A DNA stretch of 64,000 nucleotides from Ruegeria spongiae. Lineage in GTDB: Bacteria > Pseudomonadota > Alphaproteobacteria > Rhodobacterales > Rhodobacteraceae. Location of the stretch: assembly GCF_023502395.1 (NCBI RefSeq), contig NZ_JAMFMB010000001.1, forward strand, positions 186,001 to 250,000, in the 5' to 3' direction. Positions 3,303 to 44,951 of this stretch are shown here, piece by piece. The notes beneath the pieces are model-generated. The model ran no database searches, was not told the origin of the DNA, and saw only the letters and a list, made by a program, of their open reading frames with translations. Numbering within the stretch: position 1 is the first letter of the stretch; every line of letters starts with the position of its first letter. The translations under genes and the position numbers were made by a program.

Positions 3303-5210
3303 ATGCACCGCCTGTTCGCACTTTTTTGTCTGCTCTGGGCGATGCCTGTTTCCGCACAAATACCTGACTACGTGGGATCGGAGCGTTGCATAGCGTGTCA
3401 TGAAGAGGCGGGCACGCTCTGGTCCGGGTCGCATCATGCCAAGGCCTGGACCCAACCGGGACCCGACACGGTGCTCGCTGATTTTGATGGCACAGGTTTT
3501 GACCATGACGGGATGGAGGTCACGTTCCGCATCGACGGGCCGGATTACCTGGCCCGCGTGGTCGAGAAGGATGGCAGCACGACCGAGTATAGACTGCATT
3601 CGGTGGTTGGTGTCGCGCCGCTGCAGCAATACCTGTTCGAGACGGGCCGCGGCCATCTGCAAAGCTTTGATGTGGTCTGGGATGTGGAGCAGGGGGAATG
3701 GCTGCACCTTTACCCCGATCAGGACCTGCCGCCCGGTGACGGGCTTCACTGGACCGGGACGTACAAGAACTGGAACGCCCGCTGCGCCGAATGTCACGCC
3801 GCGGGATATCGCCGCAACTATGGCCAACGCACCCGCAGCTATGCCTCGGATCAGGCCGAGATCGGGGTCGGGTGCGAGGCCTGCCATGGGCCGGGATCGG
3901 CGCATCTGGACTGGACCACCGGCAAGACCCCAGCCGAGGGGCTGAGCGCGCAGGGTTTCACCATGGATTTCGCCAGCGGGTCCGAGGCAGTGATCGGGCA
4001 ATGCGCCGGCTGCCATTCCCGGCGCGAGGCGCTGGCGGATGGCAATCCGCTGCCCGGAACGCCCTATCATGATGCCTACACGCTGGCGCTGCTGCGGCCC
4101 GGGCAGTATCACGCCGACGGTCAGATCCTGGACGAGGTCTATGTCTATGGCTCGTTCCTGCAATCCAAGATGTATGCCAACGGGGTCACCTGCCTGAACT
4201 GCCACAATGCCCATAGCGGAGAGCTGCTGGCCGAGGGCAATGCTGTCTGCACCCAGTGCCATTCGGCTGCGGGCAATCCGGATTTTCCCAGCCTGAGCCC
4301 TGGCGACTATGACAGCGCCGCGCATCATCATCACCCAGAAGGTGGGGCGGGCGCGCAATGCGTGTCCTGCCACATGCCCGAAAAGGTCTATATGCAGGTC
4401 GATCCGCGCCGCGATCATTCCTTCCGTATCCCGCGCCCCGATATGGCGGCTGAAACCGGTGCGCCGGACACTTGCACCAGTTGCCACAGCGATCGCGACC
4501 CGGTCTGGGCGACCGAGACGATCGCCACGTGGTTTCCCGACGACCGCAACCGGCAACCGCATTTCGGACAGGTCTTTGCCCGCGCGCGCAGCGCCCCCGG
4601 AAGCGCGGGTCCTGACCTGCGCTATCTGGCGCAGGACGAGGCGCAGCCGGGCATCATCCGGGCCACCGCGCTGTTCCTGCTGGAACCCGCCGCCACATCC
4701 GAACTGGCCACAGAGATCGCCGGTTTGCTGGCACATCACGATCCGCTGATCCGCTCCGCCGCGGCCTCGCTGCAACGCGCCGCACCTGTCCAGGACCGGC
4801 TGCAGCGCCTGTTGCCGGTGTTGCAGGACCCACGGCGCTCGGTCCGTATCGCGGCGGCAAAGCAGATGATCAACGTCCCGCCCGAAATCATGAGCAACAG
4901 CCAGCGGGCCATCGTGCAGCAGGCAATGGCGGATTGGCAGCGCTCGATCCGGACCCGGCTGGATTTCCCGGAAACCCATCTGGTTCTGGGCGGGATCGCC
5001 CTGGTGGGGCGCGACACCCAGGTCGCCGAACGGGCCTTCCGCGAGGTGGTCACGCTGGACCCGCAGCACCCCGACGCCTGGCCCATGCTGGTCCGGCTGG
5101 TGCACGCCAACAAGGGGCCGGAGGCAGCACGGCAGGCGCTGCGCGAGGGCCTGTCTCAGGTGCCCGACCACCCCGCATTGCTGGGCTTGCAGAGCCAGAT
5201 GAATCCCTGA
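3303..5210 (+). CDS. Periplasmic octaheme c-type cytochrome with HEAT/TPR-like C-terminal region
   Basis: A 635-residue exported protein with signal peptide (cleavage probably after PVSA, residue 18). Eight CxxCH haem-binding motifs are visible, with first Cys near residues 29, 161, 191, 234, 297, 316, 353 and 391. The first haem is separated from the rest by a beta-rich stretch. After residue about 410 there are no further haem sites; instead there are helical repeats resembling HEAT (EIAGLLAHHDPLIRSAAAS) and then TPR-like repeats (AERAFREVVTLDPQHPDAW). This is the multihaem doubled-CXXCH/cytochrome c554-like class. The electron donor and substrate are unknown; no quinol oxidase, nitrite reductase or haem-lyase gene is adjacent. 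The C-terminal repeats suggest a protein-binding surface. Confidence 0.85.
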   Translation: MHRLFALFCLLWAMPVSAQIPDYVGSERCIACHEEAGTLWSGSHHAKAWTQPGPDTVLADFDGTGFDHDGMEVTFRIDGPDYLARVVEKDGSTTEYRLHSVVGVAPLQQYLFETGRGHLQSFDVVWDVEQGEWLHLYPDQDLPPGDGLHWTGTYKNWNARCAECHAAGYRRNYGQRTRSYASDQAEIGVGCEACHGPGSAHLDWTTGKTPAEGLSAQGFTMDFASGSEAVIGQCAGCHSRREALADGNPLPGTPYHDAYTLALLRPGQYHADGQILDEVYVYGSFLQSKMYANGVTCLNCHNAHSGELLAEGNAVCTQCHSAAGNPDFPSLSPGDYDSAAHHHHPEGGAGAQCVSCHMPEKVYMQVDPRRDHSFRIPRPDMAAETGAPDTCTSCHSDRDPVWATETIATWFPDDRNRQPHFGQVFARARSAPGSAGPDLRYLAQDEAQPGIIRATALFLLEPAATSELATEIAGLLAHHDPLIRSAAASLQRAAPVQDRLQRLLPVLQDPRRSVRIAAAKQMINVPPEIMSNSQRAIVQQAMADWQRSIRTRLDFPETHLVLGGIALVGRDTQVAERAFREVVTLDPQHPDAWPMLVRLVHANKGPEAARQALREGLSQVPDHPALLGLQSQMNP

Positions 5211-11720: not shown

Positions 11721-12611
11721 ATGATCAAGTCGATGACCGGATTCGCCTCCAGCAAAGGCGAGCTTGCGCCGTTTGCCTGGAGTTGGGAACTGCGCAGCGT
11801 CAATGCCAAGGGGCTCGATCTGCGGCTGCGGGTGCCGGATTGGCTGGAGGGGCTGGAAGCCGCCCTGAAGCCCATGCTCGCCAAAGCGGTGGTGCGCGGC
11901 AATATCACCCTGTCGCTGCGTCTGGGTCGGGACGAAGCGAGCACGGGACTGTCGCTGAACCGGGACATCCTGTCCGCCGCATTGGACGCGCTGCACGAGA
12001 TCGAAGCCGAGGCGATGAACCGGGGCATCACATTTGCGCCCTCAAAAGCCAGCGACCTTCTCTCGGTGCGCGGCATTCTGGATGCGGGCGCGGGAGACGA
12101 GGACCTGTCCCCGCTGATTACCCAGTTGAAATCGGAATTTCAGGCGCTGGTACAGGCCTTTGTCACGATGCGTGCCACCGAAGGTGCATCTTTGGCCGAA
12201 GTGCTGGACGGGCAGTTGAGCCAGATCGAAGACCTGACCGCGCAAGCTGCAAGTATCGCCGAGGCGCGCAAAGAGGCCATGGCTGACACGTTGAAAGCCA
12301 ATCTGGCCAAGGTTCTGGAAAACACTGACGGGGCCGACCCGGACCGGGTCGCGCAGGAACTGGCGATCCTGACGGTCAAAGCAGATGTCACAGAAGAGAT
12401 TGACCGGCTGGGCGCTCATATCAAGGCCGCCCGCGATCTTGTCGCCAAAGGCGGTGCAATGGGACGCAAGCTGGATTTCCTGATGCAGGAGTTCAACCGT
12501 GAGGCCAATACGCTGTGTTCGAAATCACAGAACATCGACCTGACCGCCATCGGGCTGGACCTCAAGGCGGTAATCGACCAGATGCGCGAACAGGTACAGA
12601 ATGTCGAATAA
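11721..12611 (+). CDS. yicC: YicC/YloC-family endoribonuclease
   Basis: A 296-residue protein beginning MIKSMTGFASSKGE, the invariant YicC N-terminus; GAGGA sits 7 bases upstream. The N-terminal YicC domain (about residues 1-155, with ELRSVNAKGLDLRLRVP) is followed by the C-terminal DUF1732 domain with MGRKLDFLMQEFNREANTL and the end SQNIDLTAIGLDLKAVIDQM. Family members are now regarded as endoribonucleases that affect small-RNA stability and stationary-phase growth. It lies 12 bases before gmk, the classic yicC-gmk pairing. Confidence 0.93.
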   Translation: MIKSMTGFASSKGELAPFAWSWELRSVNAKGLDLRLRVPDWLEGLEAALKPMLAKAVVRGNITLSLRLGRDEASTGLSLNRDILSAALDALHEIEAEAMNRGITFAPSKASDLLSVRGILDAGAGDEDLSPLITQLKSEFQALVQAFVTMRATEGASLAEVLDGQLSQIEDLTAQAASIAEARKEAMADTLKANLAKVLENTDGADPDRVAQELAILTVKADVTEEIDRLGAHIKAARDLVAKGGAMGRKLDFLMQEFNREANTLCSKSQNIDLTAIGLDLKAVIDQMREQVQNVE

Positions 12612-28932: not shown

Positions 28933-29382
28933 ATGGCGAATATTCTGGTTCTGAACGGTCCGAACCTCAATCTTCTGGGCACGCGACAACCCGAAGTTTA
29001 CGGCTCGACCACTCTCGCGATGGTTGAGGATGCGTGCAAACGCCACGGCGCGGAAATCGGGCTGACAATCTCCTGCGCCCAAAGCAATCACGAAGGTGCA
29101 CTGATCGACCTGATCCATGATGCACGCGGCACCCAGGACGGGATCGTGTTCAATGCCGGAGCGTATACCCACACCTCGATTGCGCTGATGGATGCGATCG
29201 CCTCGGTGGAGTTGCCGGTTGTCGAGGTGCATCTGTCCAACATCCACGCCCGCGAGCCGTTCCGCCACAGCTCGTACATCGCCAAGGTTGCGATTGGCCA
29301 GATCAGCGGGTTTGGCGCCGACAGCTACCGCTTGGCGCTGGATGCCCTGGCCACGCATATCCGCGGGGGACGACCGGAATGA
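28933..29382 (+). CDS. aroQ: Type II 3-dehydroquinate dehydratase
   Basis: A 149-residue enzyme beginning MANILVLNGPNLNLLGTRQPE, the invariant type II dehydroquinase N-terminus. The catalytic Tyr is in PEVYGSTT, with QSNHEGALID, FNAGAYTHTSIAL and VEVHLSNIHAREPFRHSSY completing the active site. It catalyses the third step of the shikimate pathway as a dodecamer. Its stop is within an ATGA overlap with a LuxR-type regulator. Confidence 0.95.
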   Translation: MANILVLNGPNLNLLGTRQPEVYGSTTLAMVEDACKRHGAEIGLTISCAQSNHEGALIDLIHDARGTQDGIVFNAGAYTHTSIALMDAIASVELPVVEVHLSNIHAREPFRHSSYIAKVAIGQISGFGADSYRLALDALATHIRGGRPE

Positions 29383-30134
29383 AGCTGGTCGAATACCTGG
29401 AGTTCATCAGCTACACCAAGACGCTTGAAGAGCTCTGGGCGGGTCACACCGCGCAGATGGCGAATTACGGCTTTGACCGGCTGCTTTATGGCTACACCCA
29501 ATACCGGACCGCCACATCGCTGGGCGATCCCGAGGATTTCGTGATCCTCACAAATCACGATCAGGATTATATCGACGGCTTCCTGCATGCGGGCCTCTAC
29601 TTTCATGCACCGATGCTGCATTGGGCGCTCGAGAATGAAGGCGCAGGCAGTTGGCGCATGATCAGCGCGTTGATGAGTGACCGAAGCGTGTCAAAGAAGT
29701 CTCGCGAAGTCTATGAATTCAACGCCAAAATGGGTGTGACCGTCGGGTACACTGTAAGTTTCAACTCAGTCTCGATCCGTTCGAAAGGGGCGATCTCGCT
29801 CTGCGCGCAACCCGATCTGACGCAGGACGAGATCGACGCGCTTTGGGCCGAGAAAGGGCGCGAAGTGCTGCTGATGAACAACATCGCGCATCTCAAGATC
29901 CTCACCCTGCCCTACACCGCCCCCAACCGCGCGCTGACCAAGCGGCAGCGCGAGGCGCTGGAATGGGTTGGCGATGGCAAGACCATTCAGGATATCGCCA
30001 TTCTGATGGGCCTGACATCCGCAACGGTCGAAAAGCACCTGCGCCTTGCGCGCGAGTCTCTGGCGGTGGAAACCACGGCACAGGCCGTTCTGAAAGCCTC
30101 GCTGCACAACCAGATGTTCGTGGTCGAGGCCTGA
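29379..30134 (+). CDS. LuxR-type regulator with autoinducer-binding domain (solo)
   Basis: A 251-residue regulator. The N-terminal 165 residues match the autoinducer-binding domain (NYGFDRLLYGYTQYR, HAPMLHWALENEGAGSW, VTVGYTVSFNS); the C-terminal LuxR helix-turn-helix is ALTKRQREALEWVGDGKTIQDIAILMGLTSATVEKHLRLARESL. No luxI-type synthase is in the window, so it is a LuxR solo here. It is translationally coupled to aroQ (ATGA). Whether it binds an acyl-homoserine lactone or another ligand cannot be told. Confidence 0.88.
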   Translation: MKLVEYLEFISYTKTLEELWAGHTAQMANYGFDRLLYGYTQYRTATSLGDPEDFVILTNHDQDYIDGFLHAGLYFHAPMLHWALENEGAGSWRMISALMSDRSVSKKSREVYEFNAKMGVTVGYTVSFNSVSIRSKGAISLCAQPDLTQDEIDALWAEKGREVLLMNNIAHLKILTLPYTAPNRALTKRQREALEWVGDGKTIQDIAILMGLTSATVEKHLRLARESLAVETTAQAVLKASLHNQMFVVEA

Positions 30135-30460
30135 CCAGCGCCCATCACGTCCTGGAGCGCGCCAAGTTTACGCGGGGTAAGGAATCCATTACTTTCCCCT
30201 TAACGCGTATTCTCGCAATATAGTTACGTTCCGTGAGTGGTGGCTTTAGCCAAGGGACATCGGGAAATGATCCCTGTGATTTCAGGGCACTCAAACCTGT
30301 CCGGAGTCGGGTGTGCATAGTCCGCATCCGCTTCGGAGCTTCTGAGGGGTCCCATCCATCCCCATTGAATCGGGGCCCCTCTTCCTCAATCCCCTCATAT
30401 TTCATTGACGCCAGAGGGCATCGCGACTGTACAGCATCGGATTGGCACGCGCGGCGCATG
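30135..30460. other. Structured non-coding region downstream of luxR-type gene
   Basis: About 325 bases with no convincing gene on either strand. A strong 10-base stem with one G-U pair is formed by GAGGGGTCCC (30344-30353) and GGGGCCCCTC (30372-30381) around an 18-base loop, without a T-tract. An imperfect inverted repeat built on ACGCG and TAAGG with CCTTA and CGCGT lies at 30170-30207. The region may carry an unannotated RNA or the 3' end of the luxR-type mRNA. Confidence 0.35.
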
Positions 30461-32441: not shown

Positions 32442-33284
32442 TCAAGGCTGCGCCTCGAGTGCACGCATCTGCCCGTGGCCCTGCCGCACGATTGTTTCGC
32501 AATGGGCGGCCAGCGCCTTGCGGTCGGCAAAATCGCTGACTTTCACCGGGATGTGATAGATCAGTTCCACGCTTCCCTGCGGCCAGGCGGCCAGGGTCTT
32601 GAGCAGATGCGGCCCGAAGTCCATCTCGCCCCACCAGCCATAAAACCGCTCGGGCTGCCCCTTGGGGGCATGAAACACCACCGAGACCGGCTGCACATAC
32701 ATGAACGCGCGCAGCTCTTCGGTGAAGAAGGCGGCAAACAGCGTGGTCTTGAAGGGCAGCACACGCTGCCCGTCGGTCGAGGTGCCCTCGGGGAAAAACA
32801 GCAGTTTGTGCCCGGCTTTCAGACGCTCTTCGAACAGTTTGGTCTGCTCGCGCGCCTTGCGGCGGTCGCGCTCGATGAACACGGTGCCGGTAGCGCGCGC
32901 CAGCCAGCCGATACCGGGCCAGGCCGCGACTTCGGCCTTGGACACGAAATAGATGCGTTTGCGGGCGTTGAGCGCAAAGATGTCGAGCCAGGAACTGTGA
33001 TTTGCCACCACCGCGCCGGGTTCACTCATCAATGTTCCGCTGGTTCTGAAGCCCATCCCAACAATGCGGAACGCGTTGCGGCAGACGAATTGGGTGATGA
33101 ACGGAGTTACCGGGCGGCGCATCCCGAAAAGCGGACGCTCAATCACGCGCAGCGCCAGCAGGATCAGCAGCCCCCCCAGCACCAGCAACGCCAACAACGG
33201 ACCGCGCAGCGCAACAAGCGCCCAGCCACGTAATCCAATCCGGAGCGGGTCGGGTGCATCGTTGCCTTGCCAGGTGGTGCTCAT
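32442..33284 (-). CDS. olsA: Lyso-ornithine lipid O-acyltransferase (PlsC-like)
   Basis: A 280-residue membrane-bound acyltransferase starting MSTTWQGNDAPDPLRIGL. One N-terminal hydrophobic segment (PLLALLVLGGLLILLALRV) precedes the PlsC domain with the HX4D motif NHSSWLD and FFPEGTSTDG. It would add the second, ester-linked fatty acid to lyso-ornithine lipid. Its ATG overlaps the olsB stop (ATGA), and this linkage is why OlsA is preferred over a generic PlsC. Confidence 0.88.
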   Translation of the reverse strand: MSTTWQGNDAPDPLRIGLRGWALVALRGPLLALLVLGGLLILLALRVIERPLFGMRRPVTPFITQFVCRNAFRIVGMGFRTSGTLMSEPGAVVANHSSWLDIFALNARKRIYFVSKAEVAAWPGIGWLARATGTVFIERDRRKAREQTKLFEERLKAGHKLLFFPEGTSTDGQRVLPFKTTLFAAFFTEELRAFMYVQPVSVVFHAPKGQPERFYGWWGEMDFGPHLLKTLAAWPQGSVELIYHIPVKVSDFADRKALAAHCETIVRQGHGQMRALEAQP

Positions 33285-34045
33285 GCGCTGCGGCCCCCGC
33301 CATAGATGCGCTGCTGCCGGGCGTTGAGGCGCGCGGTATCCAGCACCAGACAGATATCGGTGGTGTTGAAGGCATGGTCGATGAACGCCCCCTCGCCCAC
33401 AAAGCCGCCGAGACGCAGATAGGCCTTGATCAGCGCGGGCACCTGCACCATGGCGGCGCGCCGGTCCAACTGATCCGGCGCGACCAGATCCATCGACTGG
33501 AAATGGTCGGGCTGCGCCCGCACCCGCAGTTCCGGCGGCGCAAGATGGTTGTGATGCAGCATCGACAGCGGCTGCGCCAGTGCCCCCATGTCGGTGCCGT
33601 GAAAGCTTGCCACACCGAACAGAACCTCGATGTCGTGATCGGCGACATAATCCGACAGCCCGTTCCACAGATGATACATCGCAGCCCCTCCCCGGTACTC
33701 GGCATGCAGGCACGAGCGGCCCAGCTCCAGCAGTTTGCGGCCACTTTGGCGCAGGACGCTCAGATCATACTCATCCTCGGAATAGAACTGACCCATCTTT
33801 TTGGCCTGATCACCGCGCAGCAGGCGATAGACACCGACCACCTGATCCGAACTGTCATCCGAGATCAGCATATGGTCAAAATAGGGATCAAATTGGTCCT
33901 GCTCCAGCCCCTGCTCATGGTCGACCATCGCACCACCGCCGCCCAATTCGCGCACGAATACGTCATAGCGTAACCGCTGCGCCGCGCGCAGGTCGGCGTC
34001 GGTTTCGGCAAGTCTGACTGTAAAGCTCGGTCCGCTATCCGGCAT
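33281..34045 (-). CDS. olsB: L-ornithine N-alpha-acyltransferase
   Basis: A 254-residue GNAT-fold acyltransferase: LRYDVFVRELGGGGAMVDHEQGLEQDQFDPYFDHMLI, VGVYRLL, LELGRSCLHAEYRGGAAMYHLW and LIKAYLRLGGFVGEGAFIDHAFNTTDICL are the OlsB signature blocks. It transfers a 3-hydroxyacyl group from ACP to the alpha-amine of ornithine. First gene of olsBA. No Pho box is found in the upstream 90 bases, although ornithine-lipid synthesis is phosphate-controlled in several alphaproteobacteria. Confidence 0.92.
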   Translation of the reverse strand: MPDSGPSFTVRLAETDADLRAAQRLRYDVFVRELGGGGAMVDHEQGLEQDQFDPYFDHMLISDDSSDQVVGVYRLLRGDQAKKMGQFYSEDEYDLSVLRQSGRKLLELGRSCLHAEYRGGAAMYHLWNGLSDYVADHDIEVLFGVASFHGTDMGALAQPLSMLHHNHLAPPELRVRAQPDHFQSMDLVAPDQLDRRAAMVQVPALIKAYLRLGGFVGEGAFIDHAFNTTDICLVLDTARLNARQQRIYGGGRSA

Positions 34046-34141
34046 CAGGTTCAGGTCTCAAAAAGCGAGGGTTTGCGCGCTGATACCGCATCGCGTGCGC
34101 CGATTGCAACCGACGCCGGATTAACCTTTCGTAAACCTATT

Positions 34142-34372: not shown

Positions 34373-34969
34373 ATGGGCGAAAGCACCGTCAACCTGGCAA
34401 CCCTGATCGGGTCGCGCATCTGTCATGACCTGATCAGCCCGATCGGCGCGATCAACAATGGTCTGGAACTTCTTGAAATGACAGGCGCACCCAGCGGCCC
34501 CGAGATGGATCTGATCTCGGACAGCGTCGACAGCGCCGGGGCGCGGATACAGTTCTTTCGCATCGCTTACGGGATTGCCGGGGCGCAGATGCTGGGCGGG
34601 CCCGAGATCCGTTCGGTCCTGAAAGAGGTAAATCGCGGCGCAAGGGTCACCGTGGATTGGACCCATGACGACCCCTGCCCGCGCACTGTGGTTCGGCTGG
34701 CCTTCCTGGCGTTCCAGTGCTGTGAAACCGCACTGCCCCAGGGCGGGCAGGTGCGCTTTGACAAGACTGGCGGGCGCTGGACCGTGACCGCGACCGGTCC
34801 GGTCCTTTCGTTGGACCCGAAGGTCTGGGAAACGCTGAGCAACCCGGCAGCCGGGGCCGAGATCACGCCTGCGCTGGTTCAGTTCGCGCTGCTGCCCGCA
34901 GCCGCCACTGAACTGGGCAACCGCGTCGAGGTGACCTCGGACGAGGCGCAGATCACCATCCGGTTCTGA
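34373..34969 (+). CDS. chpT: Histidine phosphotransferase ChpT
   Basis: A 198-residue protein beginning MGESTVNLATLIGSRICHDL. The phospho-acceptor His18 lies in SRICHDLISPIGAINNGLELL; the C-terminal half is a degenerate HATPase-like domain lacking ATP-binding motifs, as in Caulobacter ChpT. It relays phosphate from CckA to CtrA and CpdR; in Rhodobacterales this relay controls motility, gene-transfer agents and related traits. Its presence fits the CtrA box at 44165. Confidence 0.9.
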   Translation: MGESTVNLATLIGSRICHDLISPIGAINNGLELLEMTGAPSGPEMDLISDSVDSAGARIQFFRIAYGIAGAQMLGGPEIRSVLKEVNRGARVTVDWTHDDPCPRTVVRLAFLAFQCCETALPQGGQVRFDKTGGRWTVTATGPVLSLDPKVWETLSNPAAGAEITPALVQFALLPAAATELGNRVEVTSDEAQITIRF

Positions 34970-43896: not shown

Positions 43897-44164
43897 TCGA
43901 AATTCCTGTGTGGCTCTGGGATGCCGTTCAATATCCGCGCTCAGGCTTGTTACCGTCTGACCGCTGGATGGCGTTGCCCGGGCGATTGATGACGAAAGAT
44001 TGTTGGTCGCAAGCTGCCTCAATTCTTCTGCACTGTCGAGAGGCCAATGGTCGGGCTCGGTTGACCACCAACCAGTTGCCCTTTCGCGGGGCGCGGGAGG
44101 TTCGACAGAGGGGAAAGGAGTTCTGCTTGAATTCGCTTTCGAGTCGGCCTTTGCCCGGACATCG

Positions 44165-44179
44165 TTAACCAGTCGTTAA
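44165..44179. promoter_or_regulatory. CtrA binding site upstream of the PAS_5 gene
   Basis: TTAA-CCAGTCG-TTAA is an exact match to the CtrA full-site consensus TTAA-N7-TTAA. It is the only exact match found by reading the window and lies 116 bases before the PAS_5 start. The rest of the 398-base gap between the GNAT and PAS_5 genes (43897-44294) contains no credible gene. ChpT, the upstream relay protein of CtrA, is encoded at 34373. Confidence 0.65.
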
Positions 44180-44294
44180 AGATTTGATCCAAAATTGAAG
44201 TAAATCATGTCAGTTTGATGGGCAGAAGATGCTTCGTGATGCTGGTTTACCTGCCAGACGAGGCCGGACATGAGACCGTGAAAGGAGTGTATCG

Positions 44295-44951
44295 ATGAAA
44301 CCGCTGGCCAGACCCGCACAGCTTTCGGGCAAGGGTTCAAAGATTGTGACACTCGACAGTTTCCGGCCCCGCGCCAGCCTGTCACCGCTGCGTCAGGCCG
44401 AGGCCTATTGGGCCGCGCTGCGTCAGGGGGATGGGGTCCCCAAACGGGCGGCGATCGACCCGCGCGGCCTGTCAAATCTGCTGCAATACGCCTTCATTCT
44501 GGAACGTGTGGCCCCCGGCTTGGCCCGGTTCCGGCTGGCCGGACAACACCTGACACAGTTGATGGACATGGAGGTTTCAGGCGTCCCGCTGACCGCTCTG
44601 TTTGCGGGACCGGACCGGCAGGCGGTGAGTGATCATCTGACCCGTCTGTTCGATGGCCCGGCCATCGTGGACCTGACGCTCTGCGGGCAGCGCCGGTTCG
44701 GGCGCAAGACGCCGACCGCGCGGATGATCCTGCTGCCGCTGCGCAGCGAATGTGGCAATGTAGACCGGGCGCTGGGGGTCATCGTGTCCGAGGATGCCTC
44801 GGCCAAGGGTATCGGTCAGATGCATATTGAAACCGCGCATCATCGCGCGATCAGTCCGGAGCTGGAACCCGGACGGTGCGCCGGTACGGGGGCAACCGCA
44901 CCAACGCGTGACCGGTCGGGTCTTCGGCTGGAGCCGGTTCGCGAGACATGA
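44295..44951 (+). CDS. PAS_5 (PF07310) domain protein
   Basis: A 218-residue protein from MKPLARPAQLSGKGSKIVTLDS; AAAGGAG precedes the ATG. Residues about 30-170 form the PAS_5 domain (AYWAALRQGDGVPKRAAIDPRGLSNLLQYAFILERVAPGLARFRLAG, then GVPLTALF). No kinase, HTH or GGDEF domain is attached, so it is a stand-alone PAS protein; alphaproteobacterial relatives are mostly uncharacterised and some take part in cell-cycle or motility signalling. The last 40 residues look disordered. The CtrA box upstream fits that context. Confidence 0.82.
   Translation: MKPLARPAQLSGKGSKIVTLDSFRPRASLSPLRQAEAYWAALRQGDGVPKRAAIDPRGLSNLLQYAFILERVAPGLARFRLAGQHLTQLMDMEVSGVPLTALFAGPDRQAVSDHLTRLFDGPAIVDLTLCGQRRFGRKTPTARMILLPLRSECGNVDRALGVIVSEDASAKGIGQMHIETAHHRAISPELEPGRCAGTGATAPTRDRSGLRLEPVRET

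Follow-up and report, generated by a model that had tools for sequence, protein, structure and literature searches.

What places a small stand-alone PAS protein of Ruegeria spongiae under regulatory control, and does CtrA, which governs cell cycle and motility as a master regulator, have a part in it? The question is raised by a single motif in the 64,000-nucleotide stretch of DNA analyzed here, hereafter the window. The 15-mer TTAACCAGTCGTTAA (44165..44179, plus strand) is an exact CtrA box of the form TTAA-N7-TTAA, and it precedes a gene (44295..44951, plus strand) encoding a 218-aa protein with a single PAS_5 domain (PF07310, E = 1.9e-34, residues 31-163). The original prediction held this to be the only exact CtrA consensus in 64 kb and to lie at a promoter-like distance from the gene. 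Both statements proved correct: a scan of both strands found no second exact TTAA-N7-TTAA in the window, and 115 bases separate the box from the ATG at 44295. Read on the minus strand (44164..44179), TTAACGACTGGTTAAC matches exactly both TTAA-N7-TTAAC and TTAAC-N5-GTTAAC, the latter cited as the motif of CtrA in this group (PMC7232146), and the box thereby fits the full-site consensus on both strands. As a match in one genome it is unremarkable and weak evidence, because an exact TTAA-N7-TTAA turns up at least once in 8 of 100 shuffled windows (0.08 expected). Over the entire genome (4.6 Mb), a search for TTAA-N7-TTAAC gave 19 hits at 13 places (12 hits in the backward control) and one for TTAAC-N5-GTTAAC gave 8 hits at 6 (none in the control), with the PAS_5 box present in both lists.

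Conservation in orthologous promoters, the check named with the original prediction, bore it out. Rather than missing from close relatives, the site is present as an identical 17-mer in the other species of the genus examined, referred to below as the sister species. We collected 200 orthologous upstream regions, from about -400 to +30, and counted spacings over 198 of them. TTAA-N7-TTAA was present in 76 and TTAA-N7-GTAA in 108, against shuffled values of approximately 0.6 and 0.4, and other spacings reached at most 20 (TTAA; the count for TTAA-N4-TTAA) and 8 (GTAA). Some genomes had entered twice; a recount over 178 upstream regions sharing no 60-mer gave 68 and 94 for the two forms, 133 for either, and 18 (TTAA) and 8 (GTAA) for the best other spacings. 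The 7-base spacing stands out among spacings. In a set of about one promoter per genus (112 promoters), TTAA-N7-[TG]TAA was found in 68, most of them with the GTAA form at a position about 50 bp downstream; when one mismatch was allowed, 93 had a site and 19 had none. The exact TTAA-N7-TTAA was present in just 14 of this set, and TTAA-N4-[TG]TAA recurred in 18. Control upstream regions of 322 other genes from 20 family genomes contained TTAA-N7-[TG]TAA once and a one-mismatch version eight times; among controls whose intergenic gap was 150 bases or longer, the corresponding values were 1/103 and 4/103. Of 80 named loci of relatives, 79 had a TTAA-N7-[TG]TAA site, in 64 of them as the exact TTAA form. 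The family sample (loci L051-L140) is non-random, most of it being the highest-scoring orthologues of a ranked list. The best-matching named locus was that of Ruegeria sp. 2205SS24-7, and many other matches came from Ruegeria, Phaeobacter, Tritonibacter, Leisingera and other Rhodobacteraceae/Roseobacteraceae. Related promoters are non-independent, and the contrast of 79/80 named and 68/112 per-genus promoters with 1/322 controls is strong but inexact as a statement of probability.

Orthologous promoters carry the motif at two positions. Site A, between about -120 and -160, mostly reads TTAACCAttcgTTAA; site B, TTAAcnnntngGTAA, is in most cases between -80 and -120. The distance between them was 50 bp in 27 of 29 pairs once duplicates were removed (32 of 34 before removal), the second site in the PAS_5 promoters of relatives being TTAA-N7-GTAA, 50 bp downstream of the first. 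The window promoter has site A alone, with a degenerate site B downstream. Identity of 20-mers with the sister species, together with a consensus over the 76 promoters with a T-type site, delimits a conserved promoter block that starts at the box (44164..44213, plus strand). In those 76 promoters CCAAAaTT is conserved 24-31 bases from the box start, and the window has CAAAAT (44190..44195, plus strand) 25 bases from the same point. We read this short motif as a putative -10 element, an assignment that would place the box over the -35 region. Activating CtrA sites of Caulobacter are reported to lie near -35 (PMC6180460), and the 25-bp distance would therefore put the box where activating sites lie. 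From its sequence, AAAGGAG (44281..44287, plus strand) is the likely ribosome binding site. A GcrA/CcrM-type promoter, as in mopJ, was considered and rejected on the scarcity of GANTC, which occurred in 53 of 198 PAS_5 promoters versus 118 expected from base shuffles and may be rare genome-wide.

Two members of the CtrA relay were identified in the genome, CtrA itself (NF045991, 431.8 bits; cut-off 350) and ChpT. The latter is a ChpT-like histidine phosphotransferase encoded within the window (34373..34969, plus strand; PF10090, 100.8 bits), and its NCBIfam ChpT matches of 107.9 and 97.2 bits lie below the cut-offs of 240 and 225. The original prediction had cited the nearness of chpT to the PAS_5 gene. 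The PF10090 match supports a ChpT-like gene 9.2 kb from the box, and that proximity adds little and by itself proves nothing. Upstream of ctrA, 470 bases contained no exact site and two one-mismatch sites. Elsewhere in the genome, an exact CtrA box lies 176 bases before luxR of a LuxR-LuxI pair (contig C54, 165500-170500). We take this pair, and the DivL candidate described below, as positive controls for the exact consensus. CtrA sites at luxR-luxI are reported in Rhodobacterales, among them perfect sites before luxR2 of Dinoroseobacter shibae (PMC4046655), a likeness that concerns quorum sensing rather than a PAS_5 protein. The 16-mer at this LuxR-LuxI box, TTAACACTTCGTTAAC, is also found unchanged in the sister-species genome (contig C23). 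Further exact sites lie near genes for Hint_2, nuclease-like, kinase, aminotransferase, peptidase and glycosyltransferase proteins or within reading frames, and some of these are probably due to chance.

The PAS_5 gene is the only one found in this genome, and its product has no other Pfam domain over cut-off and no effector domain. AlphaFold2 predicted a confident PAS fold (mean pLDDT 83.2), with 10-residue means of 84-98 over residues 31-190 and poorly predicted ends. The best 50 Foldseek matches of the model, with E values no better than 4.5e-5, are LOV and flavin-protein PAS domains, from which no ligand can be inferred, and a sequence search returned no solved structural relative. A short LRLV-like motif ends 71 of 78 named PAS_5 orthologues; the window protein, with the tail GLRLEPVRET (about 44907-44948), retains it in partly degenerate form. 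It is possible that the motif is a docking peptide. A PAS_5 orthologue was detected in 359 of 394 family genomes, with one match each and two in a single genome (G079). CtrA was sought in 30 genomes with PAS_5 and in 20 without. It exceeded its cut-off in 28 of the former, the remaining two having partial matches (297 and 208 bits), and in 7 of the latter. Some of the PAS_5-negative genomes are incomplete (three at 74, 82 and 89%). The association (Fisher p 1.6e-5) is overstated, as it ignores relatedness. Absence of PAS_5 thus tends to accompany absence of CtrA, and the 7 genomes with CtrA and without PAS_5 indicate that PAS_5 is not required for CtrA.

An exact, conserved site between two divergent genes can serve either of them, and in most relatives that second gene is yicC. 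Of the 80 named loci, 79 have yicC upstream of the PAS_5 gene on the other strand, where position alone cannot assign the site. On this arrangement the box could serve the divergent neighbor, which is yicC in most relatives and a GNAT acetyltransferase gene in the window, with PAS_5 as a bystander. The sole exception among the 80 belongs to the window's own genus, the Ruegeria sp. 2205SS24-7 locus. In the window, yicC (11724..12608, plus strand) and the PAS_5 gene are on the same strand and 32 kb apart, a separation that fits inversion or relocation in the genus. In the sister species, too, yicC is unlinked from the PAS_5 gene. Upstream of yicC there is no CtrA site within one mismatch in the window or in the sister species, nor was a site found upstream of yicC in three genomes without a detected PAS_5 gene, 325 bases being covered in one of these. 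Because yicC has moved away without the site while PAS_5 has kept it, the box belongs to, and travels with, the PAS_5 gene. The present neighbors fare no better. The nearest large divergent frame is the GNAT gene in the window and an SDR-like frame (recognized by eye, its start some 680 bases distant) in the sister species, yet the 17-mer is identical in the two. Furthermore, conservation lies on the PAS_5 side of the box. The first two 20-mers from the box each share 19/20 bases with the sister species and the third 15/20, with identity falling thereafter, whereas the 20-mers of the preceding 300 bases all share 2-8/20. A gapped comparison of the two species gave one homologous segment, running from 2 bases before the box into the gene; upstream of the box it returned short chance matches and no homologous sequence. 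We regard service to the divergent neighbor as very improbable.

The reading we favor, at a probability of roughly 0.87, is that the 15-mer genuinely binds CtrA and controls the PAS_5 gene, probably as an activating site, and that this link is common to many genera of the family. Phosphorylated CtrA, supplied by the CckA-ChpT relay, would bind the box at the -35 position and activate the promoter with the -10 element CAAAAT, and this promoter would drive transcription of a small cytoplasmic PAS protein. Conservation of the box, its ownership by the PAS_5 gene, a ctrA gene in the same genome and the co-occurrence of the two genes support and strengthen the proposal, made in the original prediction, that the PAS_5 gene is a candidate member of the CtrA regulon. 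Very probably CtrA acts on it directly, as on a conserved target. Chance origin of the box is in keeping with the shuffled windows that have a match and with the modest genome-wide excess of 19 hits over 12, but conservation and the spacing control, with the control upstream regions and the per-genus and named-relative counts, lead us to reject it as a negligible prospect. Another regulator that recognizes TTAAC could be the one that binds, for instance a Dnr/Fnr protein, whose site TTAAC-N4-GTCAA shares the half-site (PMC7232146), and the N4 arrangement does occur in some of the orthologous promoters. We consider this improbable, however, given that 7-base spacing dominates in those promoters, that the window box matches the CtrA consensus whichever strand is read and that the PAS_5 gene co-occurs with CtrA. 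That CtrA binds the box and represses the gene is a more serious, if still rather unlikely, reading. CtrA can repress, and in Caulobacter a half-site then overlaps the -10 region (PMC6180460); here, by contrast, the -10-like CAAAAT lies at a distance that would put the box near -35, at the activating position.

It could also be argued that the PAS_5 protein is simply the short DivL of Rhodobacterales, for which control by CtrA was predicted earlier. DivL of this order is reported to be reduced to its PAS part, and predicted CtrA sites have been described for divL (PMC9430884, PMC2877005). Like that protein, the PAS_5 protein is a PAS protein without a kinase domain, encoded downstream of a CtrA box. 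This genome, however, encodes in a separate gene a 503-aa PAS_7 protein, adjacent to tsaE and an APH-type kinase gene and preceded at 48 bases by its own exact CtrA box (contig C98; positions 3613-3627 of locus L282). Adjacency to tsaE and a PAS_7 domain are features that we take to mark the DivL locus. The 503-aa protein is probably the short DivL of the order, although NCBIfam gives it no DivL name. It has no meaningful alignment with the PAS_5 protein. With the PAS_7 gene filling the DivL place, identity of the PAS_5 protein with DivL was rejected as highly improbable.

Direct CtrA control of the PAS_5 gene, the reading retained, invites comparison with MopJ of Caulobacter crescentus (CCNA_00999), which is reported to promote CtrA accumulation and to act on the CtrA regulon (PMC4432633). 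Both are stand-alone, single-domain PAS_5 (pfam07310) proteins of an alphaproteobacterium with a CckA-ChpT-CtrA relay. They differ in size, MopJ having 165 aa and the window protein 218 aa with an extra tail, and in promoter, since mopJ is described as bound by GcrA and induced by (p)ppGpp (PMC4432633) whereas the window promoter has a CtrA box. A further difference concerns the targets of MopJ, which acts at DivJ, DivK and DivL (PMC4432633); the first two of these are reported to be missing from Rhodobacterales (PMC9430884). Membership in the MopJ equivalog was rejected (NF051868, 36.2 bits versus a cut-off of 200); no match over this cut-off was obtained in 142 genomes of the class, and the Caulobacter control passed. 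PAS_5-type matches are, moreover, numerous in other Alphaproteobacteria, with at least 23 in one genome. Orthology to MopJ is not claimed, because NF051868 failed and because such matches are numerous elsewhere.

A second parallel is Osp of Rhodobacter sphaeroides, a single-domain response regulator that inhibits CckA; osp is reported to be activated by CtrA, and CtrA-like sites precede it in many Rhodobacterales (PMC9430884). Osp resembles the PAS_5 protein as a small single-domain protein whose gene follows a CtrA-like site, and differs from it as a response regulator with CckA as its target, the window protein being a PAS_5 protein without a known partner. With Osp, Rhodobacterales offer an example of a small protein that is driven by CtrA and able to act back on CckA (PMC9430884). 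In the least certain step of the proposed mechanism, the PAS_5 protein might likewise feed back on the CckA-ChpT-CtrA relay in a MopJ-like manner. Tentatively, the Rhodobacterales PAS_5 protein may be a signal-sensing regulator of this relay, itself CtrA-driven and forming a widespread feedback loop, that would take MopJ's part by way of CtrA instead of GcrA; we hold this to be possible and less likely than not to be correct in full. A protein that occurs about once per family genome, has a CtrA box before its gene and tends to vanish with CtrA is a candidate input or feedback arm. It bears on how CckA-ChpT-CtrA is tuned in Rhodobacterales, which are reported to lack DivK and DivJ. No paper among the matches listed described a CtrA-controlled PAS_5 gene in Rhodobacterales; the genome-wide CtrA regulon predictions of Brilli et al. 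(PMC2877005) may include one.

Two other CtrA-like sites, each with one mismatch, were seen in the window. TTAACCTTTCGTAAAC at 34121-34136 lies about 236 bases before chpT, and it precedes the start of a minus-strand acyltransferase gene (33284-34045, PF13444) by about 75 bases. A LuxR-type autoinducer-binding regulator is encoded at 29379-30134, with no adjoining autoinducer synthase noticed, and the second site, TTACTTTCCCCTTAAC at 30189-30204, follows this gene by less than 60 bases.
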